Virus record (IMG/VR): IMGVR_UViG_3300042465_002315
Span: 1-40,756 of that record
Strand: one strand, 5' to 3'
Origin: a virus
DNA length: 40,756 nt
Below are positions 17,490-40,756 of this stretch, in pieces. Within the stretch, counting starts at the first letter, position 1. Each line of letters opens with the position of its first letter. The notes below the pieces were generated by a model. That model saw only the letters and a list, made by a program, of their open reading frames with translations. It did no database searches and was not told the origin of the DNA. The position numbers and the translations under genes were made by a program.

Positions 17490-17610
17490 AAGCCAAAATC
17501 CACTAAATACTATTACTGTAAAAGTTGACCAAACTTTTACGATATTCGACTGTGGTAAACCCGCAATGCAAGGTGGTTATCCGTGAAACTCGGTGTATAA
17601 AGGAGCGCAT
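17490..17610 (+). promoter_or_regulatory. Leader with late-promoter-like CTAAATAC and a perfect 9-bp hairpin
   Basis: CTAAATAC (17503-17510) resembles the late motif but lacks the leading TAT. A hairpin follows at once: GTAAAAGTT (17518-17526) pairs perfectly with AACTTTTAC (17532-17540) around GACCA. A short GGCT/AGCC repeat (17484-17494) overlaps the preceding stop. The remaining leader ends in AAAGGAG (17599-17605), 5 nt before ATG 17611. Its layout parallels the leader at 11101-11195. Confidence 0.5.
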
Positions 17611-23028: not shown

Positions 23029-26000
23029 ATGGCAGAATTTAAATTAAACAGAATTAGATTTACTTGGAAATCAGACTGGGCAACCGCCACCGTCTATACT
23101 AAAGACGACATTGTTCGATACAGCGGAAAATCTTATGTATGTTTAGTGGGGCACACTGCGTCAGCTGATTTTAATACTGATCTAGAATTTATTAATACTA
23201 CGCCTCAACCAGATCTCGCTGATCCAAAATGGGTACTATGGTTTGACGGATACGAATGGAAAGGCAACTGGGAACGTACTACTTTTTATGATCTAGGTGA
23301 TTATGTTAGATACAACGGAATAGTTTATATCTGTAACGAAAGTCATACTAGCGCATCGACGGTAACACTGGGGCTAGAATCTGATCAAAGTAAATGGACG
23401 GCGTATGCTATTGGTGATAATTGGACCACTGATTGGACTCCTTCTCGTAGATATAAACTAAATGACCTTGTGCGTTACAGCGGTAGAATTTATAAATGTA
23501 CTCTAGGACACACGGCCTCGGCAACTACTGCGCTAGGATTAGAAGCAAACAGTGGAAACTGGACTTTACTAAGTTATGGTTATGAGTGGAAAACTGACTG
23601 GGCTATTAATACTAGATACAAAATTGGCGACATTGTTAAATACGGCGGAATTGTATATACTTGTACGTTAAATCATACATCTGCCTCTACACTTGCTACA
23701 GGTATTGATCCTAATATTAGTAACTGGAGTGTACTACACAACGGTATAGAATACAAGACATACTGGACCGCAAGTACTCGATATAAATTAAATGATATTG
23801 TAAAATACGGTGCTGACTTATATATCTGTGTAATTTCACATACATCTGACATTGGATTTAACACTGATAATTTTTCTGTGTGGGTTCCTGGATTAGAGTT
23901 TGTCAACGCATGGGACGCTGCAGTTTATTATATTAAAGGTGATATAGTTACCTATGGTGGCTACCAGTATACTAGCAATACTACAAACAATATTGCAAAC
24001 ATTCCATCAACTAGTACAGTAAATTGGACACTACTTGTAAAGAATTATAATATTCGTAATGAATGGGACTCGGCCATAGCATATAAAACTGGTGACCTAG
24101 TAAGACGCGGTGGCTATCTATATGTTGCGGTTGCTGACAGTATAAATCAAGATACATTGAATAATACTGCGTTCTGGGAAATTGTTATCCCAAGCATGAA
24201 GTGGATGAATCGATGGTTAATTAGTACAACTTTCACTATCGGCGATGTAGTAACATATTATTCAACAGCATATATTTGTACCAACACACATCTTTCAGCA
24301 AATCCGCCTACAATTGATACTGGTAACTGGGACATATATGTTAGAGGCGAGCAGTTTGAAACTTTGCAAACACAAGGTGATATACAATCATTTAACCAAG
24401 GTGTCCCGGCAGCAGTTGCTATTGGCGTGGACGGAGCATTATTAAAAGCAAAAATTTCGCCAAGCACGTTGCTGTCAGTACCGTCATGGGATAGTTGGGG
24501 AATTATTGGAAAAGTTTATTATGTCTCTCCAACAGGAACGGACCGACCAGATTATGGGTTAACAGTTCAAACGGCATGGAGAACTGTCAAGTACGCCTGC
24601 GAACAGGGCGGCGGGTCACCGGCTCCTGGTCAGCCAAACGGTCCACTAGTGGGCCCGGCAACTATTAATATTAAGACTGGTACGTACAATGAAACACTAC
24701 CAATTAAGATTCCGGCAGGTGTTGCCTTAGTAGGTGATGAATTGCGGGGTACGGTTATTCAACCAGCAGTTGTTATTAATTGTATTGCAACAGCTTCAAG
24801 CTCGTCTACCAATAGAATTACTGTTAATACCACAGTTGGTATTACAGCAAATATAAACATACAAATAGTAACTCCTACAATTATTACCACAGCAACCGCT
24901 ACATCGTCAGATGGCAATAAGATTACGTTAGGATTCACCATCGGAGCATATATTAATATGCCGGTAGTGTTTACTGGCCCTTCCTCTTTTGGTAACATAG
25001 TAGCAGGAACAACCTATTATATACAATCATACGATTCTGTAACTGCTACTATTACAGTCAGTGCCGCCTTTGGTAGCTCAGTAATTGTTACTCAAATTGA
25101 TGCCGCTGGCGCAATGACGGCAACACTTGGGGGGTTTGCAGGACTCGAATCCGGACAAACATATTATGTAATTGGCTCATCAATTACACCAACAACATTC
25201 CAAGTGTCATTTACAGCAAATGGCGTTGTTCCACTACCCTTAACAGACACTGTCGATCAGTCTGCAGCCGTTTACGGCGGTGACGCAATTAAAGATATGT
25301 TTTATGTTCGTAACGCTTGCGGAATTCGTAACATGACATTGACTGGACTACTTGGCGGATTAGGTCCGGCAAACTCATATGGTTCTAAACGACCAACCGG
25401 CGGAGCATATACATCATTAGATCCAGGAACGGGTCCAGATGACACTTCGGTACACATCACTACTAAATCACCATATACTCAAAACGTTACCTTATTTGGA
25501 AAAGGATGTGTTGGATTAAAGATTGACGGAACTTTACACAACGGTGGAAACAGATCCATTGTTGCTAACGACTATACCACGCTGATTAGCGAAGGTATCG
25601 GCGTGTGGTGTACCGGTCCTTCTTCATTAACTGAATTAGTATCAGTGTTTGCTTATTATAGTCATTGCGGATATATTGCGGAAAACGGCGGAAGAATTCG
25701 TGCTACTAACGGAAATACATCTTATGGTGATTACGGATGCGTAGCTGAAGGATTTGATCTTACTGAAGTTCCTATTACTGGCACTGTTAATAATAGAAAT
25801 CAACATGCTCAGATAGCATCAGCATTTATTGGAGAGGCAACTAACAAACTTCTCAAATTAGAATTTAGCAACGCTGGTCAAAATTATACAGGCGCATCGT
25901 TTGCGTTTACAGGCGCAGGTTCGGGAGCCAGTGTAATTGCTGACGAATTTAGGGATAATGGTATTTTTGAATCTCGAATTTTAGGATCAGATTTTTCAGC

Positions 26001-28971
26001 AGGCGGAAGCGGATATCTAACTTCCGGTAACCAAGCACAAGCCGGAGACCTTCAAACAATTACAATTGCGTCAAATGATCAAAATACTTTTGACAACTAT
26101 TACGGCATGCGAGTAATTATTACTAGTGGTACCGGAGTTGGCCAATACGGATATATTGCGTATTACGATGCGGTTGGTAAAATAGTCACAGTGGGAAAAG
26201 AAGGTACTACTGCACTAACATCATCAGCAACATCTGCCACAAATAACATAATTTCAGTACAAGACACAACATCATTTCCAGTAGGGACAGCAGTAGTAAT
26301 AGTTCCAAATCAACAGAATACTACGGGATTTTTAACGTCAAGAACTATTGTTAACATATCAGCTGGATATATTATAGGAACTACGTTATATGTTACTTCA
26401 GTAACTAGCGGAGCTATCGCGGTAGGAATGGTGTTATCTGGGTCTACTATTTTAGCTAACACTAGAATTGAAGCAAATATTTCAGGATTTAGTGCCGGTA
26501 GTGTTTGGAGACTTAGTATTGGACAAACTGTCGGCACAGTATTAGCACCAGTTGCAATAACTGGAGTTAATAATTTAGTATCATTAACATCAACGGTGAA
26601 CATGTATGTTGGAGAGTTGATTGTGTTTAGCGGTTCAACTTTTGGAAACATTGTAAGTGGAACTCAATATTATATTAATAATATTATAGGATCAACGGTT
26701 GCTATAAGCGCCACAGCAGGCGGTGGCGTATTTACCTTAGCAAATGCCACTGGCTCTATGTCAGTAGTCGCAGGTGGTATGTTAGGCGGCCTAACAACAG
26801 GGCAAATATATTACGTTATTGCTGCAAACTATTCGTTAATAGGATTTGCGGTCAGCACAGTACCGGGAGGTACTGCGGCAACGGTTACTACTCAAACGGT
26901 GGGTAGTTTTATGGCAGTACATGCTGTTGGCTGGGAAAACATTGTAGCAGGCACAGCCGCAGTGACTCCTATAGATTCAACTACAGTATACTCAATTGAA
27001 CCAAGTATTAGATTTGAAGAACCACCGTTTCAAGCGCAATTAAAAGGAATGCCAGTAGGTAACTGGAAATCAGTAGCATTTGGTAACGGTCGATTTGTTG
27101 GAATCTCAACTACTGGAACATCGGTGTATTCGCTAACAGGTAGCGACTGGGTAGCAGGCGGCAATTTACCCGCAGGTACTTGGGCCACGGTAACATTTGG
27201 CGGCGTTAATAATGTATTTGTAGCAGTAAACTCTGCATCGGCCACTGTTGCTTGGACAACAGACGCAATATTGTGGAACACATCAACTAGTTTATCATTA
27301 ACTGGGTTTAACGCAATAGCATATGGAGGCGGAAAATTTATAGGAATAGCACCTGGTTCAACCAACAGCGCAGGCACATCAGTTGATGGCGCAACTTGGG
27401 CCACCCTTCCGAGTCCCTTACCTGTTACTGCAACCTGGAATAGTATAGTATATGGCAGTATCGGAACTTGGGTGGCAATTACAGGAGCTTCTAATAATGT
27501 AGTTGCGTATTCAACCGACGGCGGCGGAACTTGGGCACAATCAACGTTACCTGCTAGTATAAACTGGATTTCAGTAGCATGGGGCAACGGTCGATTTGTT
27601 GCCATTGCGTCGGGATCAGCAATTTCTGCGTATTCGTTTGATGGCATAACATGGATTCAATCAACTCTTCCGGTAGCAACACTGTGGACAGACCTACACT
27701 ATGGCCAAGGACTATTTTTTGCGGTTGCTTCGGGTACAACTGCAGCAACATCAAGCTCAGACGGTGCTTCGTGGCGCAGTAGAAGTCTGCCAAACGGGTT
27801 GGCATGGTCTTCAATAACCTTTGGCAATCCCGCAATAGACTTGATTGTTACACCTGGCTGGGTAGCATTGGCAAACACTGGTAGTATTTCTTCAGCATAC
27901 ATTAAAACAGGCGCTCGTGCTCTTGGACGAGTAACCGTTGCTTCTAGCAAAATAAGTTCAATTAAATTATGGGAACCTGGTAGTGGTTACTTGACCTCTT
28001 CAGCACCAACCGCTACTATAACAGATCCCAATTACACGTTACAAGTAGTAACTCTTTGTAGGACTGCTGCCGGAGTTCTTGGGAATCCAACGTTTATTTC
28101 TAGAGGTACTGGATATCGAACATCAACTACTGTTGTAACTGTTGTTAACGGAACAGGATTTGCGGATATATATCAAACAGCAAAATTTTTAACAATAAGC
28201 GGACTAGCAAGTTTACCTACACCTGGCGCAGCCTTAACTATATCAGGCGATGCAACACAGTATCGTATTGTAGTTATTAATAATCTTGGAGCAGGTACAG
28301 TAAACTTTCAAATCGCTCCTCCATTATCAATTCTAGTTGCTCCTGCGCACGGCGTAGCAACTAGTATTCGACAAAAGTATAGTCAGTGTCGTATTACTGG
28401 ACACGACTTTTTATTAATTGGTACTGGTAATCAAACAATAACTAATTATCCAAATGTGGACGTAACAACTGCGCTACCGTTTCAACAAATCGTTGAAAAT
28501 AATGGAGGTCGAGTATTCCAAACATCAACAGACCAAGACGGTAATTTTAAAGTTGGAAATTTATTCCAAGTTGAACAGGCATCGGGTATTGTTACAATTT
28601 CAGCAGACCAATTAAGTTTAACTGGATTACAAACGTTATCACTTGGTGGATTTTCAATCGGAACTAACGCTATTGTAATCACACAGTTTAGTACAGATAG
28701 TTTTTTTACTGCTAACAGCGATGCTATTGTCCCAACACAGAAAGCAATTAAGTCATATTTGTCAAGAAATATTGCTGGTGGCGGCGCCAATGCTCAAGCA
28801 GGCGCAGTGGTGGCGGGTACGTTTGGAGTAGGCGGACCAAACAGAATATATTCTACAGTTCAAGGGCAGTTGTTTGTTAGAAACTCGATGAATCTTAGAA
28901 AGGGAATTAATGGAACAATGGTTGCTAAATCGTTCTTCCACAGTGGTTTTGGGTCAGGTAACCAAAAATAA
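23029..28971 (+). CDS. Giant modular fibre: eight carbohydrate-binding-like repeats, beta-helix, seven-bladed propeller; 1980 aa
   Basis: Residues 13-440 hold eight repeats of about 50-64 aa with pattern W-xxx-W ... Y-xx-x-D-x-V-xY-xG-xxY-x-C ... H-TS ... W (e.g. RYKIGDIVKYGGIVYTCTLN), like the chitinase-type CBM5/12 fold. Near 496 comes VYYVSPTGTDRPDYG and later IKTGTYNETLPIKIP with GDELRGTVIQPA, a pectate-lyase-like beta-helix entry. From 756 a block shared with the next gene begins: GIRNMTLTG, KSPYTQNVTLFGKGC, GNRSIVANDYTT, GIGVWCTG, LTELVSVFAYYS. Residues about 1344-1620 contain seven W-x-SV-x-[YF]-G-x-G-x-F-V-AI ... DG-x-TW units, suggesting a seven-bladed propeller. The C-terminal domain has GGRVFQTSTDQDGNFKVG and IVPTQKAIKSYLS, typical of large cyanophage fibres. 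It has its own late promoter. Binding roles are inferred from folds; no hydrolase residues were assigned. Confidence 0.87.
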   Translation: MAEFKLNRIRFTWKSDWATATVYTKDDIVRYSGKSYVCLVGHTASADFNTDLEFINTTPQPDLADPKWVLWFDGYEWKGNWERTTFYDLGDYVRYNGIVYICNESHTSASTVTLGLESDQSKWTAYAIGDNWTTDWTPSRRYKLNDLVRYSGRIYKCTLGHTASATTALGLEANSGNWTLLSYGYEWKTDWAINTRYKIGDIVKYGGIVYTCTLNHTSASTLATGIDPNISNWSVLHNGIEYKTYWTASTRYKLNDIVKYGADLYICVISHTSDIGFNTDNFSVWVPGLEFVNAWDAAVYYIKGDIVTYGGYQYTSNTTNNIANIPSTSTVNWTLLVKNYNIRNEWDSAIAYKTGDLVRRGGYLYVAVADSINQDTLNNTAFWEIVIPSMKWMNRWLISTTFTIGDVVTYYSTAYICTNTHLSANPPTIDTGNWDIYVRGEQFETLQTQGDIQSFNQGVPAAVAIGVDGALLKAKISPSTLLSVPSWDSWGIIGKVYYVSPTGTDRPDYGLTVQTAWRTVKYACEQGGGSPAPGQPNGPLVGPATINIKTGTYNETLPIKIPAGVALVGDELRGTVIQPAVVINCIATASSSSTNRITVNTTVGITANINIQIVTPTIITTATATSSDGNKITLGFTIGAYINMPVVFTGPSSFGNIVAGTTYYIQSYDSVTATITVSAAFGSSVIVTQIDAAGAMTATLGGFAGLESGQTYYVIGSSITPTTFQVSFTANGVVPLPLTDTVDQSAAVYGGDAIKDMFYVRNACGIRNMTLTGLLGGLGPANSYGSKRPTGGAYTSLDPGTGPDDTSVHITTKSPYTQNVTLFGKGCVGLKIDGTLHNGGNRSIVANDYTTLISEGIGVWCTGPSSLTELVSVFAYYSHCGYIAENGGRIRATNGNTSYGDYGCVAEGFDLTEVPITGTVNNRNQHAQIASAFIGEATNKLLKLEFSNAGQNYTGASFAFTGAGSGASVIADEFRDNGIFESRILGSDFSAGGSGYLTSGNQAQAGDLQTITIASNDQNTFDNYYGMRVIITSGTGVGQYGYIAYYDAVGKIVTVGKEGTTALTSSATSATNNIISVQDTTSFPVGTAVVIVPNQQNTTGFLTSRTIVNISAGYIIGTTLYVTSVTSGAIAVGMVLSGSTILANTRIEANISGFSAGSVWRLSIGQTVGTVLAPVAITGVNNLVSLTSTVNMYVGELIVFSGSTFGNIVSGTQYYINNIIGSTVAISATAGGGVFTLANATGSMSVVAGGMLGGLTTGQIYYVIAANYSLIGFAVSTVPGGTAATVTTQTVGSFMAVHAVGWENIVAGTAAVTPIDSTTVYSIEPSIRFEEPPFQAQLKGMPVGNWKSVAFGNGRFVGISTTGTSVYSLTGSDWVAGGNLPAGTWATVTFGGVNNVFVAVNSASATVAWTTDAILWNTSTSLSLTGFNAIAYGGGKFIGIAPGSTNSAGTSVDGATWATLPSPLPVTATWNSIVYGSIGTWVAITGASNNVVAYSTDGGGTWAQSTLPASINWISVAWGNGRFVAIASGSAISAYSFDGITWIQSTLPVATLWTDLHYGQGLFFAVASGTTAATSSSDGASWRSRSLPNGLAWSSITFGNPAIDLIVTPGWVALANTGSISSAYIKTGARALGRVTVASSKISSIKLWEPGSGYLTSSAPTATITDPNYTLQVVTLCRTAAGVLGNPTFISRGTGYRTSTTVVTVVNGTGFADIYQTAKFLTISGLASLPTPGAALTISGDATQYRIVVINNLGAGTVNFQIAPPLSILVAPAHGVATSIRQKYSQCRITGHDFLLIGTGNQTITNYPNVDVTTALPFQQIVENNGGRVFQTSTDQDGNFKVGNLFQVEQASGIVTISADQLSLTGLQTLSLGGFSIGTNAIVITQFSTDSFFTANSDAIVPTQKAIKSYLSRNIAGGGANAQAGAVVAGTFGVGGPNRIYSTVQGQLFVRNSMNLRKGINGTMVAKSFFHSGFGSGNQK

Positions 28972-28998
28972 CATAACAAAAGTACATATTAACAAATG

Positions 28999-29006
28999 AA
29001 TAAATA
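28999..29006 (+). promoter_or_regulatory. Late-promoter-like AATAAATA
   Basis: GAATAAATAC sits 26 nt before ATG 29033, after the 1980-aa gene and before its larger paralogue. CGGAG (about 29021-29025) is the ribosome site. Confidence 0.6.
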
Positions 29007-29032
29007 CATTACAATGAACATCGGAGCATCGA

Positions 29033-32000
29033 ATGGCTGAATTTAAATTAGGTAGAATCCGCTTTATCTGGAAGAACAACTGGGCAGCGGCTGTAACATA
29101 TGTCAAGGACGACATTGTTAGAAATGGTGGAAAAACTTATCTATGTGTGATTGGCCATACAGCTGACGCTAATTTCTATACCGACTTGAATAATGCTCCA
29201 ACAAGATGGAATCAAGTATCTGACGGTTCTGAATGGAAAGATAACTGGACAACTGGGTTTTACTATAAAGTTAACGATCTAGTAAAATACGGCGGAAGAA
29301 TTTATCTATGTAACACAGCGCACACTAGCAATGCGGCAGCATCTTCAGGCACAAGCCCAGAAACAACCGCAGGCCTTGAAGCAGATCAAAGCAAGTGGGA
29401 TTTATATGCTAGTAGTTTCAACTTTAGAGATAACTGGGCAACAAGTCAATTTTACAAAATTGGGGACGTAGTTAGATACGGTGGTATTTCTTATGTATGT
29501 AACACAAGTCACACTTCAAGCTCTACAGCTTCAACTGACATCGACGGATTAGAAGCAGATCAAGGCAAGTGGGATACTTACGCCAAAGGCCTTGACTGGA
29601 TCGGCAATTGGACAACCGGCTATCGTTATAAGAGAAATGACGTTGTGCTATACGGCGGAACAACTTATGTATGTAACACTGGCCACGCTTCGGCAGCAAC
29701 TGCAACACTAGGACTTGAAAACGATCAAGGATTATGGGATTATTTCCATAAGGGGATTACATTCTTAGGTACTTGGAGTGGCAGCACAGTACGTTACAAA
29801 GTAAATGATGTTGTCAAGTACGGTGCCGATCTTTGGATTTGTACCTTAGACCATACATCAGCTGCACTGTTTTCAGATGCTACTAATTGGTCGTTGTTTG
29901 TTGGCGGATTAGAATACGAAAACAGCTGGTCAGCTAGTGAAGTGTATCAACCAGGTGACGTTGTGTCATACGGTGGCTATGCATACATTTCTAAAACAAA
30001 TCATACCAATAAAATTCCAACTAGCAATCTTTCTGATTGGGATCTATTTACTACTGGATTCAGTTTCCAAGGTGACTGGGCAACTGCTACAGATTACAAA
30101 GTAGGACAAGTTTTAAGATTAAATGGGTACACATATGTTGCCCTATTAGATCATACTTCAAGCGCATTAAATATTCCGCCTGATCTTACCAACTGGTCTA
30201 GATTAAACAGCGGCGTTAAATGGGCGGCCACTGGCCAAACATTTGCCGGTGTAGTAGGTTCAAACTTAATTGGCAGCGGTACCGGAGCATCGTTTAACAT
30301 TACGTTAGTAAACACTAGATATACTGCTACAGTTAATGCTGCAGGATCTGGGTACATTACCGGAAATACTGTTACTATCTTAGGAACTCAAGTAGGCGGA
30401 ATCTCCCCGGCTAATGATGTCATATTAACAATTACTGCTACCGCAGGCGCAGTAGACTCAGCAACTACATTAGGTTCTTCTGTATCATGGAAAACTGGAG
30501 TGTCATATGTCCTAGGCGATGCTGTAGCATTTGGTGTTAATAGCTATATTTGTATACTTGCTCACACTGGCGGCACGCCAAACAGACCAGACAACGATGT
30601 AACTGGCACCTATTGGAATTTATTATCAGCAGGAGCAATTACATCTGTGCTAACCACACAGGGCGACACGTTATATATGGGTGGAGCAGGACCAACTAGA
30701 TTACCAATTGGGACTGACGGACAAGTATTGCGTGTTAACGGTACAACACCGCAATGGTCATATTTTGGTGTAGTTAACAACATTGTATATGTAGCACCTA
30801 GCGGTACTGATGTACTGGGCGCAGGGCAAGGCCTAACTATTGACAAGCCTTGGAAAACTGTTAGATTTTCAGCTCGACAAATTGAAGAAGGATATTTAAA
30901 TCCTAATGCTGCACTGCTACTTACAAAAAATAAACAATTTATAGTTAAAGAACTTTCTAACTATGTTACATATACTAGTAGAGTAACAATTACATCATCA
31001 AACGCAACGTTATTTACTACGTCAACTTCAACGTCAGTTTTATCAGTGGGTATGCCAATTAGTTTTACTACTACTGTGGGCGGAGTTACTCCGGGAACAA
31101 CATATTACGTATTTGATATTCCTGCCGGCGGAACAACATTTGGAATAACAAATGCTTCTGGCGGCACCCGACGAACGTTATCGGTAGAAACAGGCGCAAA
31201 CGTTGGATCGTACGTATTCAGCACAGTACCAACAGAAAGAGACGCTGGCATTATTGTTGATGCGTTGGCATTTGATATTAGCCATAGCGGGACTTTACAG
31301 ACAACAACGGCAGCTCTAGCATATTTTGCTCCAGGTGGCGCGACATTTGCAGCAGGAAATATTCCTGGAGAAATTCCACAATTTATTCGAGCACTAGATT
31401 ATCTTAAAAATAAATTAGTAGTTAATATTTTAACAAATACTTCTCCAGTAGACAACTATCAAACATTAAATAGCGTATCTGCATCAGCACAGGCTAAACA
31501 AATTATTGATCCTATTATCCCTGCTGAAATTGGAACTTCAACTACTGCTACAAATCTAGTAAGTATTATTACTACAGGTTTGGCTTCAGGTACAACATCA
31601 GCAATTCCTGCTGTTATAAATCCTGGTACAACTATTTCAGTTAAAACTGGCACATATTCAGAAACATTGCCAATTATAGTTCCTAAGAACACTGCGGTTG
31701 TTGGCGACGAATTACGTAGTAGTGTAATTCAACCAGCAACGGCCGATATGACATTAGTTACTGATAAGCCAAAAACTATATCAGTGTTAAACAGACTAAA
31801 GGCAATTGTTCCTAACCTAGTAACTAATACTGCGGTGACACCTACAAGCGGTAATACCGCATCTCAGGTGTATTTAGGTTATGCCGGAACAACAGCAACA
31901 TCATCAGTATCAGCAAATCTTATTACAATATCAGACATTGTTGATAATGGTTTAGGAGTAGTACCGGCATTCACGTTACCTGATCCTACAAGCTACGATA

Positions 32001-35000
32001 CTGGATATTTTAATGCTCGCAGATTGATTGTTGCGAACAAGGCATTTTTAGTATCAGAAGTTAGTGCGTGGATTAACGCACAGATTGCAGGCAACATTGC
32101 TCCGTTTGTTGGATTTACATATGGTGGAGTAGATCAGACAAGTTGTGAACGTGATGTTGGTTACATTGTTGATGCTGTAGTTTATGATTTAACATATGGT
32201 GGAAACTTAGAAACTCTAGTTGCCGGTCGCTCATATTATACATTTGGAGCATACGTTGGTGATCCTGCTTCAAAGCTTCGTGCGTTAGCAGTTCAGGCAC
32301 GTATTAAAGATATCATTGATAATATTGCTACAGGTAATACTGCGGGCTGGACCAAAACTACTGGACTGACTCAGGATGTAAGCGGTACTGCGGGATCAGC
32401 TAATGCGGCAGCATTTGCTCAAGCACGTATTCAAGATATATACACTACAATTAACACTGGTACACCTCCAGCAGAACTTACACCAAGCATTACATGGGTG
32501 AGTACACTTTTACAAATGGCTGCAGCAGATGTTCAAGCAAGAAAAGCCTCAATACAAGCAAGTGCCGTAGCGTGGGTTCAATCAAACTATCCGTTGCTAG
32601 TGTTTAACACAGAAACATGTTCACGAGATGTTGGTTATATTGTAGACGCATTAACATACGATTTAATGTTTGGTAGTAATTTTAGATCAGTTAAAGCTGG
32701 AATGAGTTATTATACCGCACAAGCCGCTTTAGTAGTTGGTGCGCAAAAAGCCGCACAGCTAGGTATGTTGGCGTATATGTCAGATATTGTTACAGACATT
32801 ACTACTGGTATTGGAAGTAGCGGTATTGGCAGTAGCGCATCAGTAGCATCTATCTTGACCAACTCTGCAATCATGAATGATATTGTTCAGAACGGTCTAA
32901 CAGCAGTTCCAACATTTACATTTACTAACCCAACAGGATATAACACTAGTTTCTTAGCAGGGTATGGTGACGGTAAAGCACAAATTGTACAAAACTATGC
33001 GTTTATTAAAGATGAAGTTTCTAGTTATTTAAATACAAACTTTAACGCAGTATGGGTAGCATTAGGCGTCGGCGGCCAAGCAAACTGCCAACGTGACGTA
33101 GGATACATCCTTGATGCTTTACAATATGATATGACTTATGGCGGCAATACGCAAACATTAATTGCCGGTAGTGCATATTATTCTAATGCTACATTAACCA
33201 TTGCGTCAATTGAAAAAACAGCAACTATTGCGGCATATACATGGTTGAAAAGTTTTATTGATAATATTGTTATTAAAGATACCGCAGGCTGGACTAAAAA
33301 TTCAGCACTTAGTCAAGTAGTTACAGGAACTGCCGGTTCAGCAGGCGCCGCAACATTTGCTCAAGATCGTGTTCAATCTATCATAGATTGGATTACTAAC
33401 GGCACAGCCCCGGCAACAATTCTTCCAACGGCAGCGATTGCCTTGGCTAGTACTCCTTTGCAAAATGCTTACAACGCACTACAATTAGCAAAAACTGAAA
33501 TTCAATCTGACGCAGTAAGTTGGGTTCGCAAATTTTACCAAGCGTTAAATTTTAATAGTGACACTTGTTATAGAGATGCTGGATATATTGTTGATGCGTT
33601 TAGCTATGATTTGATGTTTGGTACTAATTTCAATTCAATTACTGCAGCAATGTCTTATTACAGAGCAACAACAAGTGCGCAATATGTACTGGCAAATCAA
33701 GCAACTGCCGAACGTGGCGCAATTAATTTTATAGCTCATAAAGCTAAGAAAATTGCAGCATACGACACTGCTGAACAAGTAATAGTGTCAATTGATGATA
33801 TGATTTTATCAATTGCCGGTACAACAACATTTACATCCATTGCTACTCAAACATTTGTAGGCGGCAATATTACTATTCCTAGTACTGCTGGAATGATGCC
33901 TGGAATGCCAATTACATTTGATACTGCTGGCGTAGGAACTCTCTCTACTGGACGAAAATATTGGATTGTGGCAGTTACAAATTCAACAACGTTTACAATT
34001 ACAGAAACATACGGTAGTGTTGTTCTTAAAACATTAACAGCTGATAGTGGTAACACCTCATTCACCATTGGTGAAGTTGTTGAAACTACAGGAACTGGAT
34101 CATATAACAATGTTGTAACTTCAATTAACGGTGCTGAAGTATTACGTGCTAACGCAACATTTTTATCAAACGAAGCTACTGCGTGGGTAGACTATACTTA
34201 CAGCAACACTATAGTAAGTACTGACGGTACAAATAACAGAGCGATCACCGGTACCAATCATAATTTTGTTGTAGGCGACCCTGTAGTATTTTCAGGAACT
34301 ACTTTTGGAAATATTGTAGCAGGAACTGTTTATTACATCTTAACAACACCTACAACAAACGCATTTACACTAACAGCAGTTCAGGGATCAGCAACGGTAT
34401 TTCCGCTAGTCACAGCGTCTGCCTCGCCAGACCCGTTTGCCGTAAAATATAATTTTAGTATTACAGAATATAAGAAAAATACAGCCGCTTACATTAATGC
34501 GCTAGTGTACGATTTAGCTCTCTTAGGAAATTACAAAGCATTACGTGCCGCTACAATATATAAACATTCAGTATCTGGATCAGTATTATCAGATATGTTC
34601 TTGTTACGTAATGGAACAGGCTTAAGAAACATGACATTAAGCGGATTAACTGGTACACTAACTGCTGCAAACAGCTACGGAACTAGCCGAGTAACTGCTG
34701 GAGCATACAGTTCGTTAGATCCTGGATACGGTCCTAACGACAAAAATGTATGGATAAGTCCAAAAAGCCCGTACACTCAAAACGTAACAATGTTTGGTAC
34801 TGGGTGTATTGGTATGAAAATTGACGGAGCATTACACAGTGCTGGTAACAGATCTATTGTTGCTAACGACTATACTACCATTCTAAGTGATGGAATTGGC
34901 GTATGGTGTACTGGATCGCAAGCACTAACTGAGTTAGTATCCGTGTTCGCATACTATTCATATGCTGGTTATCTAGCTGAACTTGGCGGTAAAATGCGAG

Positions 35001-38000
35001 CAACCAATGGTAATAACTCTTACGGTACCTATGGATCATTAGCTGAAGGTGTTGACACTTATGAAGAGCCTATTATAGCAAGAGTTAACAACCGATATTA
35101 TCAAGCAGAAATAGGTGCAGTATTAACAGACAGTACTGATCGAATTTATCGTATTGAATTTGTCAATGCCGGCACAGAATATAATTCTGCAACATTTAGT
35201 ATTAGTGGAACTGGATACGGAGTGACCACTGTAGCAAATGAATTTAGAGATAATGCAGTATTTGAATCTAGAGTATTAGCTAATGGTGCTAACTACATAA
35301 CTCAAACTAACGTAGCTCAAGGCGGCACTGCTACAAGTATTGTTATTGCGGCAACTGACGCAGGTATTACTGGCGCATACATCGGTATGCGTGTTATAGT
35401 TACCGGTGGTTCTGGTGTTGGACAAACTGGTTACTTTACTACCTATAACAACGGTACTAAAGCAGGTATTGTAGCTAAAGAAAGTTTTACAACACTATCA
35501 ATATCTGCCGCAGGATCAAGTTTACTAACAGTTGCTGACACGACATCTTTATATGCTAACATGCCAGTGATACTTACTGGCGCACTGTTAACTGGTATGT
35601 CTACAATTGCGTTAGGTACAATTTATTACGTAATTGGATCATCTATAACTTCAACACAGTTCAGTGTTGCATCAAGTTCAGGCGGCGTAGTGGCTGTGGC
35701 AGTGGGAACATCATCTAGCAGTAGCGGATTAATTTTAAATGCTGTTGGATGGGATCATATAATTACTGGTACAGCAATAGTTAGCTCACTGGATTTAACA
35801 TCTTCATATATTATTGAACCAAGAATAACATTTACTAGTCCTACATATTCGGCAACGTCACGCACCTCAATAAGCAGTGCCTGGTCAGATTGCGTATACG
35901 GTGACACTATAGTAAATTATAACGGTGTAGCAAACGCAGGTGTAACAGCCACAGGCGGCAGTGGTAGCGGAGCAACATTTACAGTAGCAAGAACTGGTAC
36001 TGCGTATGTTGTAACTACTAATACCGCAATATCTGGTCAAGGCGGCACGCTATATAAAATTGGCGATGTACTTACTATTCCAGGAACAAGTGTTGGGGGT
36101 GTAAGTACTACTAACAATATAACAATTACAGTAACATTAGTTGCTACTGCTCCATCTAGTGGAATATCAATTGGCGCAATTCTTAACTTTACATATACTG
36201 GTGTTGGCGCTGGCGGTTACTTTGTTGCGCTTGCCGCTGGTAGTGCAGCTACTCAAATTAGTTCAGATGGGACAACTTGGGCAACGGGCGGTGCGTTAAC
36301 TTCTAATACATTGTGGAATTCAATAGCATACGGTAACGGACGATGGGTTACTGTCAGCAATTTTGACGCTTCCTCAAACTATACTACCGATCCAACGGCC
36401 TTGTGGACCGCAGGCGGAACACTAGGTGGAGGTGCTGGCTGGCAATCTATATGCTACGGCAACGGCGTATTTATGGCAGTAAAAACTGGTAGTACCAGCG
36501 CATCTTACTCGACAAACGGTACTACTTGGAATGCTACCGGTGCGTTACCGGCTAGCGTTAACTGGACTGGCGTTGCTTACGGTGCCGGAACATATGTGGC
36601 CATTGCGTCAGGCGGCACCCAAGCGGCATCAAGCGTGGACGGACTGTCATGGATATCACGAGCATTACCGGCAATAGCCAACTGGTCAAGTGTGACTTTT
36701 GGTAAAGGCGTGTTTGTTGCTGTTGCTACTGGAAGCAGAATTACAGCATACAGCAAAGACGGACTTACTTGGATACAGTCAAGTGCCGGAATGCCAGTAA
36801 GTCAAGCATGGACCAAAGTTCGTTACGGACAAGGATTATTCTTTGCTGTCGCAACCGGGTCGACAACCGCTGCCGCAACATCAGAAGACGGAGCAAATTG
36901 GACTCCAAGAACTCTAGCAGGAGCCGCGGCAGCATGGCCAGCTATTGCGTTCGGTAATCCAAGTTCTGTACCTTTATGGGTTGCGCTAACCACATCAACT
37001 GTTGTGGCAAACAGTATTGTTGCCGGATGTACAACACAAGCAAGAGTAAAAGTATCAGCAAATTCAATTAGTGAAATTCGACTAATAGAGCCAGGAAGCG
37101 GATATAGTACAATTCCGTCATTGACTATTACTGACCCTAATCAAACTAGCACAGCTACTTGGTCAACTCGAATTGGTGTAGGAGCACTGGCAAATCCAAC
37201 ATTTACCAACAGAGGATTACAATTCGCAACTGCAATTGCAACAGTTGAAGGTAATGGATACGCAGATAAGTTCCAACCTGGATATTATATCAACGTATCA
37301 GGACTAACAACTAGTCCAACTCCTGGATCAAACGTGGTGTTTGCAGGAGATAGTACATTCTATAAGTTAGTTGCGGTAAACAATTATTTAGGTACAGGTG
37401 GCGGTCAAAGTCCGTACACCGCAAGATTCCAAATAAGTCCACAATTTACACAAGTTACTGCTCCGGCACATACTACTTTAACAACTATGCGTATTAAGTA
37501 CAGTCAAGTTCGATTAACAGGGCATGACTTTTTAAGCATTGGAACAGGCGGCACAACTACTACTAATTATCCGGGTATCCCAACACAGCCAGCAGACGTT
37601 ACAAAACAAACAGTTGGCAACGGTGGCGGACGAGTATTCTACACAAGTACAGATCAGGACGGTAACTTCACAGTTGGTACATTGTTTAGTGTTCAGCAGG
37701 CAACTGGTGTAGCAAGTATTAATGCTGACGCATTTAACTTGGCAGGCTTAAACTCATTAACATTAGGTTCAGTAGCATTGGGCGGAACAGGAGCAACTAT
37801 TACTAGTTTCTCAACAGATCAATATTTTAGCGCAAATAGCGATAATATTGTACCCACACAAAAAGCTATTAAAGCATACATTAGTAGCCAAATTGGTGGC
37901 GGTTCAAGCGCATTGAATGTAAATACACTAACGGCGGGTGTTATCTATATTGCCGGTAATAGTATTAGTACTACTACTGGTGTACAGATTAACGTAACAG

Positions 38001-38068
38001 CAACAATGAATTTCACTGGCGGTATTAATGGTTTACCGTTAGCAATGGATTTCTTACTACTAGGATAA
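29033..38068 (+). CDS. Giant modular fibre, 3011 aa, paralogue of the preceding gene with extra repeats and domain insertions
   Basis: The largest gene here. It opens like its neighbour (MAEFKLGRIRFIWKNNWAAA). Residues 13-535 carry eight CBM5/12-like repeats, the seventh and eighth split by a GSGYITGNTVTILGTQVGG module. A pectate-lyase-like entry follows (IVYVAPSGTDVLG near 584; VKTGTYSETLPIIVP near 868). About residues 730-1550 contain units built on C-x-RD-x-GYI-x-DA-x-x-YD at about 158-residue spacing. From 1853 comes the block shared with the 1980-aa fibre (RNMTLSG, KSPYTQNVTMFGTGC, GIGVWCTG). A seven-unit propeller (about 2280-2659) has blade 1 interrupted by a second GSGY-type module. 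The end has GGRVFYTSTDQDGNFTVG (near 2866) and a hydrophobic AMDFLLLG. Probably a long fibre with several glycan-binding surfaces; trimeric assembly is expected of such fibres but not shown. Confidence 0.87.
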   Translation: MAEFKLGRIRFIWKNNWAAAVTYVKDDIVRNGGKTYLCVIGHTADANFYTDLNNAPTRWNQVSDGSEWKDNWTTGFYYKVNDLVKYGGRIYLCNTAHTSNAAASSGTSPETTAGLEADQSKWDLYASSFNFRDNWATSQFYKIGDVVRYGGISYVCNTSHTSSSTASTDIDGLEADQGKWDTYAKGLDWIGNWTTGYRYKRNDVVLYGGTTYVCNTGHASAATATLGLENDQGLWDYFHKGITFLGTWSGSTVRYKVNDVVKYGADLWICTLDHTSAALFSDATNWSLFVGGLEYENSWSASEVYQPGDVVSYGGYAYISKTNHTNKIPTSNLSDWDLFTTGFSFQGDWATATDYKVGQVLRLNGYTYVALLDHTSSALNIPPDLTNWSRLNSGVKWAATGQTFAGVVGSNLIGSGTGASFNITLVNTRYTATVNAAGSGYITGNTVTILGTQVGGISPANDVILTITATAGAVDSATTLGSSVSWKTGVSYVLGDAVAFGVNSYICILAHTGGTPNRPDNDVTGTYWNLLSAGAITSVLTTQGDTLYMGGAGPTRLPIGTDGQVLRVNGTTPQWSYFGVVNNIVYVAPSGTDVLGAGQGLTIDKPWKTVRFSARQIEEGYLNPNAALLLTKNKQFIVKELSNYVTYTSRVTITSSNATLFTTSTSTSVLSVGMPISFTTTVGGVTPGTTYYVFDIPAGGTTFGITNASGGTRRTLSVETGANVGSYVFSTVPTERDAGIIVDALAFDISHSGTLQTTTAALAYFAPGGATFAAGNIPGEIPQFIRALDYLKNKLVVNILTNTSPVDNYQTLNSVSASAQAKQIIDPIIPAEIGTSTTATNLVSIITTGLASGTTSAIPAVINPGTTISVKTGTYSETLPIIVPKNTAVVGDELRSSVIQPATADMTLVTDKPKTISVLNRLKAIVPNLVTNTAVTPTSGNTASQVYLGYAGTTATSSVSANLITISDIVDNGLGVVPAFTLPDPTSYDTGYFNARRLIVANKAFLVSEVSAWINAQIAGNIAPFVGFTYGGVDQTSCERDVGYIVDAVVYDLTYGGNLETLVAGRSYYTFGAYVGDPASKLRALAVQARIKDIIDNIATGNTAGWTKTTGLTQDVSGTAGSANAAAFAQARIQDIYTTINTGTPPAELTPSITWVSTLLQMAAADVQARKASIQASAVAWVQSNYPLLVFNTETCSRDVGYIVDALTYDLMFGSNFRSVKAGMSYYTAQAALVVGAQKAAQLGMLAYMSDIVTDITTGIGSSGIGSSASVASILTNSAIMNDIVQNGLTAVPTFTFTNPTGYNTSFLAGYGDGKAQIVQNYAFIKDEVSSYLNTNFNAVWVALGVGGQANCQRDVGYILDALQYDMTYGGNTQTLIAGSAYYSNATLTIASIEKTATIAAYTWLKSFIDNIVIKDTAGWTKNSALSQVVTGTAGSAGAATFAQDRVQSIIDWITNGTAPATILPTAAIALASTPLQNAYNALQLAKTEIQSDAVSWVRKFYQALNFNSDTCYRDAGYIVDAFSYDLMFGTNFNSITAAMSYYRATTSAQYVLANQATAERGAINFIAHKAKKIAAYDTAEQVIVSIDDMILSIAGTTTFTSIATQTFVGGNITIPSTAGMMPGMPITFDTAGVGTLSTGRKYWIVAVTNSTTFTITETYGSVVLKTLTADSGNTSFTIGEVVETTGTGSYNNVVTSINGAEVLRANATFLSNEATAWVDYTYSNTIVSTDGTNNRAITGTNHNFVVGDPVVFSGTTFGNIVAGTVYYILTTPTTNAFTLTAVQGSATVFPLVTASASPDPFAVKYNFSITEYKKNTAAYINALVYDLALLGNYKALRAATIYKHSVSGSVLSDMFLLRNGTGLRNMTLSGLTGTLTAANSYGTSRVTAGAYSSLDPGYGPNDKNVWISPKSPYTQNVTMFGTGCIGMKIDGALHSAGNRSIVANDYTTILSDGIGVWCTGSQALTELVSVFAYYSYAGYLAELGGKMRATNGNNSYGTYGSLAEGVDTYEEPIIARVNNRYYQAEIGAVLTDSTDRIYRIEFVNAGTEYNSATFSISGTGYGVTTVANEFRDNAVFESRVLANGANYITQTNVAQGGTATSIVIAATDAGITGAYIGMRVIVTGGSGVGQTGYFTTYNNGTKAGIVAKESFTTLSISAAGSSLLTVADTTSLYANMPVILTGALLTGMSTIALGTIYYVIGSSITSTQFSVASSSGGVVAVAVGTSSSSSGLILNAVGWDHIITGTAIVSSLDLTSSYIIEPRITFTSPTYSATSRTSISSAWSDCVYGDTIVNYNGVANAGVTATGGSGSGATFTVARTGTAYVVTTNTAISGQGGTLYKIGDVLTIPGTSVGGVSTTNNITITVTLVATAPSSGISIGAILNFTYTGVGAGGYFVALAAGSAATQISSDGTTWATGGALTSNTLWNSIAYGNGRWVTVSNFDASSNYTTDPTALWTAGGTLGGGAGWQSICYGNGVFMAVKTGSTSASYSTNGTTWNATGALPASVNWTGVAYGAGTYVAIASGGTQAASSVDGLSWISRALPAIANWSSVTFGKGVFVAVATGSRITAYSKDGLTWIQSSAGMPVSQAWTKVRYGQGLFFAVATGSTTAAATSEDGANWTPRTLAGAAAAWPAIAFGNPSSVPLWVALTTSTVVANSIVAGCTTQARVKVSANSISEIRLIEPGSGYSTIPSLTITDPNQTSTATWSTRIGVGALANPTFTNRGLQFATAIATVEGNGYADKFQPGYYINVSGLTTSPTPGSNVVFAGDSTFYKLVAVNNYLGTGGGQSPYTARFQISPQFTQVTAPAHTTLTTMRIKYSQVRLTGHDFLSIGTGGTTTTNYPGIPTQPADVTKQTVGNGGGRVFYTSTDQDGNFTVGTLFSVQQATGVASINADAFNLAGLNSLTLGSVALGGTGATITSFSTDQYFSANSDNIVPTQKAIKAYISSQIGGGSSALNVNTLTAGVIYIAGNSISTTTGVQINVTATMNFTGGINGLPLAMDFLLLG
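30239..30483 (+). repeat. GSGY-type domain insertion, copy A (between CBM repeats 7 and 8)
   Basis: About 80 residues with GSGTGASFNITL, AAGSGYITGNTVTILGTQVG and NDVILTITAT. Paralogous to copy B at 35925-36212. It lies between two carbohydrate-binding-like repeats; the 1980-aa paralogue lacks it at the matching place. Confidence 0.75.
31235..33680 (+). repeat. C-x-RD-x-GYI-x-DA repeat array in the 3011-aa fibre
   Basis: Unit cores start at 32144 (CERDVGYIVDAVVYDLTYGG), 32618 (CSRDVGYIVDALTYDLMFGS), 33086 (CQRDVGYILDALQYDMTYGG) and 33566 (CYRDAGYIVDAFSYDLMFGT), spaced 158, 156 and 160 codons. A weaker unit (ERDAGIIVDALAFD) starts at 31235, about twice that distance before the first. Units 1 and 3 resemble each other (TYGG; later AGWTK), as do 2 and 4 (LMFG), so the array is alternating A-B-A-B. 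Confidence 0.85.
35925..36212 (+). repeat. GSGY-type domain insertion, copy B (inside propeller blade 1)
   Basis: About 95 residues with GSGSGATFTVARTG, LYKIGDVLTIPGTSVGGVS and NNITITVTLVAT. It interrupts the first propeller unit between WSDCVYGDTIV and GYFVALAAGS; in the 1980-aa paralogue the same blade is continuous (WKSVAFGNGRFVGIS). Confidence 0.75.
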
Positions 38069-38080
38069 CGGAGAATTATT

Positions 38081-38401
38081 ATGGCAACAGGAAGATTAGG
38101 AACAGCAAACTTATTGGCATCTACAAATACGACGGTCTATACAGTTCCGTCGACTACATTTACAGTAGCAACTATATCAGTTTGCAATAGAAGTAATTCT
38201 GCGGTAACCTGCAGAGTAGCAATTTCGGCAGTGGCAACGCCAACAGTTGATGAGTGGATTGAATTTGATACAGAAATAATGCCAAAGGGCGTACTTGAAC
38301 GTACTGGACTTGTACTAGATGCTGGAAAGTACCTAGTAGTTTGGTCAAGTACAGCAAACGTTAATGCTGTTGCGTTTGGCATCGAAACGCCGACGGCATA
38401 A
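38081..38401 (+). CDS. Small beta-sandwich virion protein, family member 3 (106 aa)
   Basis: TVATISVCNRSNSAVTCRVA (about 28-47) and GLVLDAGKYLVVWSSTANVN (about 75-94) ending AFGIETPTA. This is the third copy of the two-part signature seen at 13182 and 22300. Ribosome site CGGAGAA lies in the 12-nt gap after the 3011-aa fibre, so it is co-transcribed with it. All-beta and small, probably a fibre-associated or decoration protein. Confidence 0.75.
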   Translation: MATGRLGTANLLASTNTTVYTVPSTTFTVATISVCNRSNSAVTCRVAISAVATPTVDEWIEFDTEIMPKGVLERTGLVLDAGKYLVVWSSTANVNAVAFGIETPTA

Positions 38402-38427: not shown

Positions 38428-38751
38428 ATGGGAAGATATATAACAACAACTGGAACTGCTGGATCAGTTACTAGGGTTAATGCAGGAACAGCGTATAATG
38501 CGCTAGTCAACGATCGTATTTTATGTACGGCCGGCGGCCAGACTATTACGTTACCAGTAGCCTCGTCATGTATTGACGGTGACACTGTACAGATTATTGA
38601 TTGCGGCGGATTCGCAGGCGCCAGTAACATTACTATTGCTAGAAATGGCGCAAACATTCAAAACTTGGCAGAAAACTTAACTGTTAACGTTAATAATGCG
38701 TGTGTTACATTATGTTATAGTGTTGCGTTAGGCTGGACAATCTTAAAATAA
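38428..38751 (+). CDS. Small structural / fibre-tip protein, 107 aa
   Basis: Contains ILCTAGGQTITLPVASSCID then GDTVQIIDCGG, NITIARNGANIQNLAENLTV and a closing LCYSVALGWTILK. The series ITLP ... GD-x-V-x-IID ... NITI-x-x-NG-x-x-I ... V-x-L-x-Y ... GW is a compact beta domain that I associate with C-terminal domains of phage and cyanophage fibres, here as a stand-alone gene. It has five cysteines, anticipating the far richer gene that follows. Confidence 0.7.
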   Translation: MGRYITTTGTAGSVTRVNAGTAYNALVNDRILCTAGGQTITLPVASSCIDGDTVQIIDCGGFAGASNITIARNGANIQNLAENLTVNVNNACVTLCYSVALGWTILK

Positions 38752-38766
38752 TAACGGAAAAATCGA

Positions 38767-39546
38767 ATGTCATCATTACGCGACTTATTACCAATTGTAA
38801 AGCCAACAGCTAACTATAAACTAATACAGCTAGCAATATACCATAACAGTATCAGTAACGTTCAAAACGGTGGCTGTTGCTGTTGCTGGATTGTGCCATT
38901 CGGCGCAACGTGGGCATCTTTTGAATTATGGGGCGCAGGCGGCGATGGCGGCGGTGCTTGCTGTTGTTCAGGGCTAGGATGCTGTGGACCAGGAACTGGA
39001 CACTACGCAAAAATTTCACTTAAAGTTACTGCGGGACAATATTTTTGTACATGCGCCGCCGGATCAGGATGCTGTGCTCAAAGTCATTGCGGTACTTGCG
39101 GATTCCCTAGTTGGGTTAACTGTGGAGCAAACGGACAACAAGTAATTTGCGCAGGTGGCGGATACACTGGATGCGTTGGTTGCTGGCACGGGTTCTGGGG
39201 ATGTACTGGAATCTGTAACGGTGCTCAAAACTTTGGTTGTAATTTATGTGCGCCTGCCTCTGCTAGACAGCCTGATATTGGTATAGCATCGATTGGTGGA
39301 ACTGCAAAAGATTCAAACTATTGCTTTAGTAGCCAATGGTTTGCAGCAACTGGCGCTCCTAAATATGGAATGTCAACAAGAACCGGCCTAGAACGCTGTA
39401 CAAATAATAATACCCGTATGGGGTGTGAAGCAATGCAAGGGTCTAAGTGGCCAGCAGGAATGGGGACTCCTTCATCTGCTTGTGGCGGCGGATGCTGTTG
39501 GGGTGGCTGGGGTGCCGGCGGCCTAGTACTAATAACGTACGGTTAA
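38767..39546 (+). CDS. Cysteine- and glycine-rich tail-tip adhesin, 259 aa
   Basis: It contains 29 cysteines (about 11%) and many glycines. The scaffold is that of glycine-rich phage receptor-binding domains: WIVPFGATWASFELWGAGGD then HYAKISLKVTAGQYF (a V-x-xG-x-x-F turn), GGG loops and a terminal GAGGLVLITYG. Cysteines sit as CCCC (37-40), CCC, CC and C-x-x-C groups within the loops. Glycine-rich loops of this kind bind receptors in T-even gp38-type adhesins; the functional parallel is inferred. Intracellular disulphides are unlikely in a reducing host cytoplasm, so metal binding or oxidation after release are options. A tail-fibre chaperone gene follows at once, then a second copy. Confidence 0.75.
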   Translation: MSSLRDLLPIVKPTANYKLIQLAIYHNSISNVQNGGCCCCWIVPFGATWASFELWGAGGDGGGACCCSGLGCCGPGTGHYAKISLKVTAGQYFCTCAAGSGCCAQSHCGTCGFPSWVNCGANGQQVICAGGGYTGCVGCWHGFWGCTGICNGAQNFGCNLCAPASARQPDIGIASIGGTAKDSNYCFSSQWFAATGAPKYGMSTRTGLERCTNNNTRMGCEAMQGSKWPAGMGTPSSACGGGCCWGGWGAGGLVLITYG

Positions 39547-39566
39547 AAAATAAGGAAAGAGAAACA

Positions 39567-40253
39567 ATGTCTGAGAATAATACACCTGAATTACCAACAA
39601 ATACTATAATTACAAAAACATTTACATATCCGGTACCGGACAAATATCTGTATCTAACTGATACACTTAAAAAAACATGTGAATGGACTTATACCGGCCC
39701 GGATAAAATTTGGGTTTTTGTTGATAATCATTCTAATAAAATATCCAGTAGATTTCACTATACTGAGAAAGATAACGGGGCTGATGTTCCAACACCAACT
39801 GGTATGACTAAAGTGATGGTCGACGCAACCGTCAGTCCAGAACTGATCAGTTTATTCCATAATGAAATAGACTACGGAACTTTGCCGCAGACTGTTGAAC
39901 AGTTACCAGAAGGCACAACCTACGGACACCCTGTAAATGTTCCACCGGATCACACATACGAATTAACTGAAATTGAATATAATCCTACCACCGGTCAATT
40001 TGTAAAACCGTATCCATGGAAAAAGCCACATATGGATTGGGAAATGTTAAAGAAAGTAAGAGAAAGCGGATTAGCAGCCAGCGATAGACAGCTTCGTCTT
40101 GCAACACCTGAACAAATACCTGCGTGGGAAGAATACAGACAAAAACTAAGAGATCTTCCAGCAACATTTGCCGGAGTTGATCCTTGGAAGGTAATTTTCC
40201 CTGAAGAGCCATTTGTTGTTAGAGCAGACTTACTACCATCAAATCCGGGATAA
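39567..40253 (+). CDS. Tail fibre assembly chaperone, 228 aa
   Basis: I chose ATG 39567 because TAAGGAAAGAG precedes it and the upstream extension of the frame would overlap the adhesin gene. The C-terminal part has the arrangement common to phage tail-fibre assembly proteins: SGLAASDRQLRLATPEQIPA, then WEEYRQKLRDLP, then WKVIFPEEPF (compare W-x-x-YR-x-x-LRDLP ... WP-x-xP). The N-terminal part (YPVPDKYLYLTDTLKKTCEW) is specific to this group as far as I can tell. Its place between two paralogous adhesins indicates it folds or trimerises them. It is low in cysteine, unlike its neighbours. Confidence 0.8.
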   Translation: MSENNTPELPTNTIITKTFTYPVPDKYLYLTDTLKKTCEWTYTGPDKIWVFVDNHSNKISSRFHYTEKDNGADVPTPTGMTKVMVDATVSPELISLFHNEIDYGTLPQTVEQLPEGTTYGHPVNVPPDHTYELTEIEYNPTTGQFVKPYPWKKPHMDWEMLKKVRESGLAASDRQLRLATPEQIPAWEEYRQKLRDLPATFAGVDPWKVIFPEEPFVVRADLLPSNPG

Positions 40254-40260
40254 TTCTACT

Positions 40261-40756
40261 ATGTCAAATTTAAGAGATTTATTTCCAGACACTAGATTTA
40301 ACTTAACATACCCAACAAATGCGTTTGGCGTGTTATCAGTTTATAACGGTAACCAAGGCAATGCTGCCAATGATGGTGGGCGTTGTTGCTTGTGGACTGT
40401 GCCAACTGGCTCAGTATGGGCTAAGTTTGAAGTATGGGGCGGTGGCGGCGATGGCCCTGGCGCTTGTTGCTGTATGCAACCAAGTCGCGGCGGCGGGTCA
40501 GGATCATATGCTCGTAGAACTATTCGTGTAACCCCAGGCCAAACATTTACAATCTGTGCCGGCGGGTCAGGATGCTGCAGTCAGCCATGTAGAGGTACTA
40601 ACGGATTTCCGTCGTACGCATGTAACGCTAGCGCAACTCCAAGTGCTCTATGCTTGTGTGCCAGTGGTGGCGCAGGTGGCGAGTCATCATGTTTCTGGGC
40701 TATTGCTAGTTGTTTCCATTGCCCTTCACATATTTGCGGATCAACTTGTAATGCTG
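40261..40756 (+). CDS. Second cysteine/glycine-rich adhesin, N-terminal part (3' end outside window)
   Basis: The frame runs open from ATG 40261 to the edge: 165 residues, 17 of them cysteine. It starts MSNLRDLFPD (compare MSSLRDLLP in the copy at 38767) and shows the same order: CCLWTVPTGSVWAKFEVWGG, GACCC, SYARRTIRVTPGQTF, CAGGSGCCSQPC, NGFPSYAC. Between the two copies the cysteine positions are only partly conserved while the WGxGGDG and VTxGQ-F framework is kept. It follows the chaperone stop by 7 nt. Because it has no stop in the window, simple ORF finding would miss it. Confidence 0.8.
   Translation, partial: MSNLRDLFPDTRFNLTYPTNAFGVLSVYNGNQGNAANDGGRCCLWTVPTGSVWAKFEVWGGGGDGPGACCCMQPSRGGGSGSYARRTIRVTPGQTFTICAGGSGCCSQPCRGTNGFPSYACNASATPSALCLCASGGAGGESSCFWAIASCFHCPSHICGSTCNA

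Follow-up and report, generated by a model that had tools for sequence, protein, structure and literature searches.

Cysteine-rich, glycine-rich paralogues kept mostly in threes as probable tail-fibre tip proteins of T4-like aquatic phages

The fibre cassette at the end of the window

The window (the whole stretch of DNA analysed) is a virus record of 40,756 bases, a contig fragment whose end is the contig end. A fibre cassette was found there, with the features listed below.

29033..38068, + strand: giant fibre protein, 3011 aa, the upstream partner of the cassette; PF02839 (CBM5/12) in 8 stretches (E 4e-37) and PHROG 9851, tail fiber (E 4e-168)
38081..38401, + strand: small conserved cassette protein 1, 106 aa; match to a tail-fibre PHROG; found ahead of the array at almost every locus
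38428..38751, + strand: small conserved cassette protein 2, 107 aa; matches to fibre-domain PHROGs; 4.7% cysteine
38767..39546, + strand: paralogue A, 259 aa with 29 cysteines, predicted TNF-like and glycine-rich domains; PHROG 4205 (E 3.6e-23); model pLDDT 83.8, Pam3 fibre Z 17.0
38875..38886, + strand: CCCC cluster of A, residues 37-40; C38 and C39 conserved at 93-95% in class A
38929..38967, + strand: first glycine-rich stretch of A with terminal CCC, WGAGGDGGGACCC, residues 55-67; across the main-type classes, C67 invariant and C66 conserved at 95% or more
39478..39543, + strand: C-terminal glycine-rich stretch and last strand of A, ACGGGCCWGGWGAGGLVLITYG, residues 238-259; C239 present throughout class A (100%) and never in B or C (0%); C243 covaries with C65
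39567..40253, + strand: chaperone 1, tail-fibre assembly type, 228 aa, assigned by domain and PHROG matches
40261..40756, + strand: paralogue B, 165 of about 254 aa, 17 cysteines, cut by the contig end; intact orthologue at L003:7494-8258, with model pLDDT 80.2 and Pam3 fibre Z 18.1

The open reading frame counts and the fibre-assembly matches agree with the first-pass annotation of this DNA, in which two cysteine-rich paralogues (29/259 and 17/165) flank a chaperone gene. A and B belong to the sequence family PHROG 4205 / Pfam Gly_rich_2, and the product of the gene between them carries a tail-fibre-assembly domain at its C-terminal side (Pfam Phage_tail_APC, E 1.2e-5, just below the cut-off) and matches PHROG 4912, 'tail fiber assembly' (E 6.5e-8). 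Since cysteine makes up only 0.47% of the other 21 genes of the window (59/12518 residues), the cysteine contents of A and B are far above chance, with binomial probabilities of 2.5e-30 and 9e-18, respectively. Every copy in every locus was found to contain 6.7-12.5% cysteine. Small protein 2, with 5 cysteines in 107 residues, lies above every gene of the window except the adhesins.

The same annotation had suggested looking for further copies past position 40756, and a third was found in a relative, L003, that is 93% identical in A. After A and its chaperone, L003 encodes (i) a B of 254 aa with 23 cysteines; (ii) a third paralogue, C, of 251 aa with 25 cysteines; and (iii) a second chaperone. 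The complete array thus consists of three paralogues and two chaperones. The description as a tandem pair with one chaperone thus holds for the window and fails for the intact array; as judged from the sequence of the relative, the apparent pair is produced by the contig end.

Predicted fold and nearest known systems

A search of solved structures by sequence profile returned nothing at E <= 1. AlphaFold models of window A and L003 B were built from alignments of the window and locus proteins. The A model matched the Pam3 fibre (7ypx) with an rmsd of 3.0 over 194 residues, the fold spanning residues 17-259, and both models are predicted to contain a TNF-like beta-sandwich that merges into a lattice of glycine-rich loops. 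The next structural matches of A and B were the Bxb1 tail tip (Z 12.6 and 13.5, respectively) and ALK/LTK (Z 8-11), with unrelated entries at about 4. The extracellular TG domain of ALK/LTK shares the TNF-like and glycine-rich fold and differs in being a distant animal receptor. The glycine-rich receptor-binding framework proposed earlier from the letters is supported by the models, which match the Pam3 fibre at Z 17-18.

T-even gp38, named earlier as a known glycine-rich loop adhesin, is not the closest relative, which is Pam3 gp24. The gp38 of Salmonella phage S16 also displays a glycine-rich lattice with loop ends at the fibre tip, but there the TNF-like domain is replaced by a beta-helix domain (PMC9608196). 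Neither A nor B matched Pfam gp38 at E <= 1, and S16 gp38 was absent from the structural match lists, which by themselves do not exclude it.

Pam3 gp24 is a trimer with helical, TNF-like and glycine-rich domains, held by the chaperone gp25 at 3:3, and its loop ends are proposed to contact the receptor (PDB 7YPX, 7YFW; PMC9608196). The proteins described here share its TNF-like and glycine-rich fold and the adjacent fibre-assembly chaperone gene. Pam3 differs in that a single protein with a long N-terminal helical domain forms a homotrimer, and neither cysteines nor disulphides are mentioned in its description (PMC9608196), whereas here there are three paralogues with about 10% cysteine and a very short N-terminus. 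In the A and B models only about 20 residues precede the first TNF-like strand, and because the long N-terminal helical docking domain is missing, the likeness to gp24 is one of the distal module and not of the whole architecture. The fold and family assignment of A and B is well supported. On the basis of family and predicted fold, A, B and C very probably act as the receptor-binding proteins of a fibre tip.

Copy number, descent and proposed assembly

Searching the phages by tblastn with A returned nothing at 1e-3, while a search with B gave weak cyanophage matches, through which the relatives were identified. Hypothetical proteins of S-SSM7, Sf-FS3, S-CAM1, S-CAM3 and P-SSM2 proved to be direct members of the sequence family. 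An IMG/VR scan with the A/B/C alignment yielded 74 loci, and in 68 of these the order giant fibre, small protein 1, small protein 2, A, chaperone, B, C, chaperone is fixed; the remainder are contig-end cuts or cyanophage types. Exactly three copies were present in 20/20 whole records of up to 268 kb, including S-SSM7, Sf-FS3 and S-CAM1, and in 8/8 additional whole records of up to 247 kb, for a total of 28/28. Further scans with S-SSM7-, S-CAM1- and P-SSM2-type proteins recovered 86 loci, mostly related to S-SSM7 or S-CAM1, of which 84 are three-copy (one cut at a contig edge), one is truncated and one is a two-copy P-SSM2 type. These locus counts are not independent, as many loci are near-copies of one another. 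Three copies are not universal, since P-SSM2-type phages (P-SSM2, AG-345-F15 and L173) carry two, with N-termini that appear to have an added coiled-coil or helical segment; a third copy elsewhere in P-SSM2 (252 kb) was not found at this search sensitivity. In six loci (L023, L029, L031, L032, L041 and L078), small protein 1 is matched a second time ahead of the array. A genome scan for the host returned only two contigs (L086 and L087), both carrying the phage cassette and both binned in one Neomarinimicrobiota MAG; these are probably phage contigs binned into the MAG and are no proof of a host.

Across 42 non-redundant main-type loci, A, B and C formed three orthologous classes, each set apart in a tree by one split (SH-aLRT 73, 78 and 89, the first two, for A and B, being moderate). 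The S-SSM7/Sf-FS3 triplets and the S-CAM1/S-CAM3 triplets fell into separate clades of their own. Positional orthology across all lineages was rejected by AU tests, as were 27/27 cross-lineage pairings among three phage lineages (p at most 0.0164). As the triplets are non-orthologous between lineages, three copies were either reached repeatedly or kept by homogenisation within genomes, alternatives that are indistinguishable here. Distance matrices correlated at 0.93 among A, B and C, at 0.86-0.91 with the chaperones and at only 0.72-0.77 with the two small neighbour proteins; all of these values are inflated by the shared descent of neighbouring genes, and the difference between them is the informative part.

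We favour an A:B:C heterotrimer as the assembly, at somewhat better than even chances, since the ancestral fold is trimeric, nearly all loci hold a constant number of three copies that co-evolve, and in some lineages all three paralogues are served by a single chaperone gene. In the virophage DSLV2, three consecutive tail proteins form a 1:1:1 heterotrimer by experiment (PMC12724248). Three consecutive related tail genes are likewise kept together in the present loci, with the two-copy P-SSM2 exception. The DSLV2 proteins differ in being of the gp37-needle type, and TNF, glycine and cysteine are not mentioned in that text (PMC12724248). By the proposed scheme, the A, B and C genes would encode the receptor-binding tip on a tail fibre of a T4-like phage related to the Kyanoviridae. 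Each paralogue would be a module of the Pam3 gp24 type, with a short N-terminal anchor, a trimerising TNF-like beta-sandwich and a glycine-rich lattice of extended loops, the outer ends of which would contact the receptor. One A:B:C heterotrimer would sit on the trimeric fibre, having arisen by triplication from an ancestral homotrimer.

Alternatively, each paralogue may form a Pam3-like homotrimeric tip of its own, or the three may supply binding sites on different fibres, each with its own target and needed for one of three adsorption steps. Pam3 gp24 is itself a homotrimer (PMC9608196), and one of the two chaperones could act on A and the other on B and C. We regard this arrangement as unlikely while still deserving serious weight, as the number three is fixed in distinct lineages, the S-SSM7 and S-CAM types use a single chaperone gene for all three paralogues, and A, B and C co-evolve strongly. 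If the heterotrimer is correct, a three-chain tip would provide one fibre with three different faces, which would explain genes that are never found singly.

Cysteines, function and neighbouring genes

An earlier check had asked whether the cysteine positions are freely replaced among homologues. This was found not to be the case, as cysteine is the most conserved residue type of class A (mean conservation 0.63, compared with 0.61 for glycine). In all three classes, C67 and C96 are present in 100% of the main-type sequences and C38, C66, C186 and C211 in nearly all. Other cysteines mark a class: C239 is found in all A and in no B or C, and C170 (L003 B numbering) is confined to class B, most members of which have it. 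Conserved cysteines in many cases lie at the ends of glycine-rich stretches. Tree-based analysis of cysteine gain and loss placed two column pairs above the rest, C121-C131 of L003 B and C65-C243 of window A, although this signal is thin (2/820 pairs, close to the multiple-testing limit). The former pair lies in the two strands of one predicted hairpin, and the latter joins the first and last glycine stretches, the presumed counterparts of which in the Pam3 lattice, L1 and L6, are both central (PMC9608196).

When the parity of cysteine numbers was used as a test for disulphides, no preference for even numbers was observed; B is mostly odd, and triplet totals were even in 19 cases and odd in 27. 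Because odd totals are common, not every cysteine can be paired inside a 1:1:1 trimer, and some thiols are therefore free, otherwise bonded or bonded between tips.

The cysteines would stay reduced while the proteins fold in the host cytoplasm, and disulphides formed after lysis would then lock the glycine lattice. That disulphides form after lysis we hold to be modestly favoured by the covarying pairs and by precedent. In phage Milano an external structure is also held by disulphides; the structures concerned are the sheath and baseplate, with proteins averaging 1.4% cysteine (PMC10811340), compared with about 10% in A, B and C, for which the bonds are predicted from the sequence. The strengths assigned to the tip role, the heterotrimer and the disulphides are judgements, not measurements. 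Taken as a whole, the reading as an A:B:C heterotrimeric receptor-binding cap that is disulphide-bonded after lysis has about an even chance of being correct. More tentatively, and at somewhat less than even chances, such a disulphide-locked glycine-lattice tip may serve a large group of aquatic myophages as their standard receptor-binding head, having arisen on more than one occasion out of a Pam3-like homotrimer.

The first-pass annotation had offered metal binding alongside post-lysis disulphides; the disulphide part remains plausible, while the metal part was left without support. The CCC and CxxC-like clusters and the odd cysteine counts would suit a zinc, copper or iron-sulphur site, but few conserved histidine partners are available (class A mean conservation 0.08) and the covarying cysteines go in pairs. 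Neither Pam3 gp24 nor ALK is known as a metal-cluster protein. We thus consider metal binding in place of disulphides improbable.

It had also been suggested that the adhesins were duplicated to widen or switch host range. The tip proteins are indeed tandem paralogues, and glycine-rich phage tips with hypervariable ends are proposed to fit diverse host receptors (PMC9608196). This explanation is unsupported, however, because nearly every locus keeps three copies and the classes are orthologous and co-evolving; among the loci not cut by a contig end, none has a single copy or at least four, and the classes are syntenic and co-inherited, being neither swapped nor lost. It is accordingly rated as quite improbable. 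We give very little credence to covalent adsorption through free tip thiols that react with thiols or disulphides of the host surface, as exposed thiols oxidise in aerated water, even though odd cysteine counts are many and conserved cysteines lie at the ends of glycine stretches.

The open-licence papers searched yielded no cysteine-rich, glycine-rich phage fibre and no heterotrimeric phage tail-fibre tip beyond the precedents cited. The module itself is already known from Pam3. What is new, as judged from those papers, is that it comes in triplets, that this rule recurs in separate lineages and that cysteines are so dense. The S-SSM7, Sf-FS3, S-CAM1, S-CAM3 and P-SSM2 members are annotated as 'hypothetical' only, with the triplet rule unmentioned. 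The three paralogues are likely the host-recognition heads of common aquatic phages, including the Synechococcus isolates S-SSM7 and S-CAM1, and since proteins with about 10% cysteine here fold in a cytoplasm that is reducing, the timing of oxidation is directly testable in phage.

Two more pairs of neighbouring large proteins with paralogue-like N-termini (MSQIGRIGGPVL / VGRISGPLL and MAEFKLNRIRF / MAEFKLGRIRF) were observed in the window at 14088-22293 and 23029-38068, and its fibre region seems to have been built through repeated duplication. Carbohydrate-type genes lie 3′ of the adhesin cassette (L003:9729-12775, L084:9738-13071 and L007:9309-12354). In L003, these are a tryptophan-halogenase-like gene (named from reading its translation) and a carbamoyltransferase-like gene (translation and profile), both on the opposite strand. 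A carbamoyltransferase follows the cassette in most loci, the halogenase-like gene in L003. The corresponding genes are a T4-GC 302 protein, a nucleotidyltransferase, a kinase and an isomerase in P-SSM2, and a prolyl 4-hydroxylase in Sf-FS3. The carbohydrate-type genes may have a role in modifying the fibre or the host surface.
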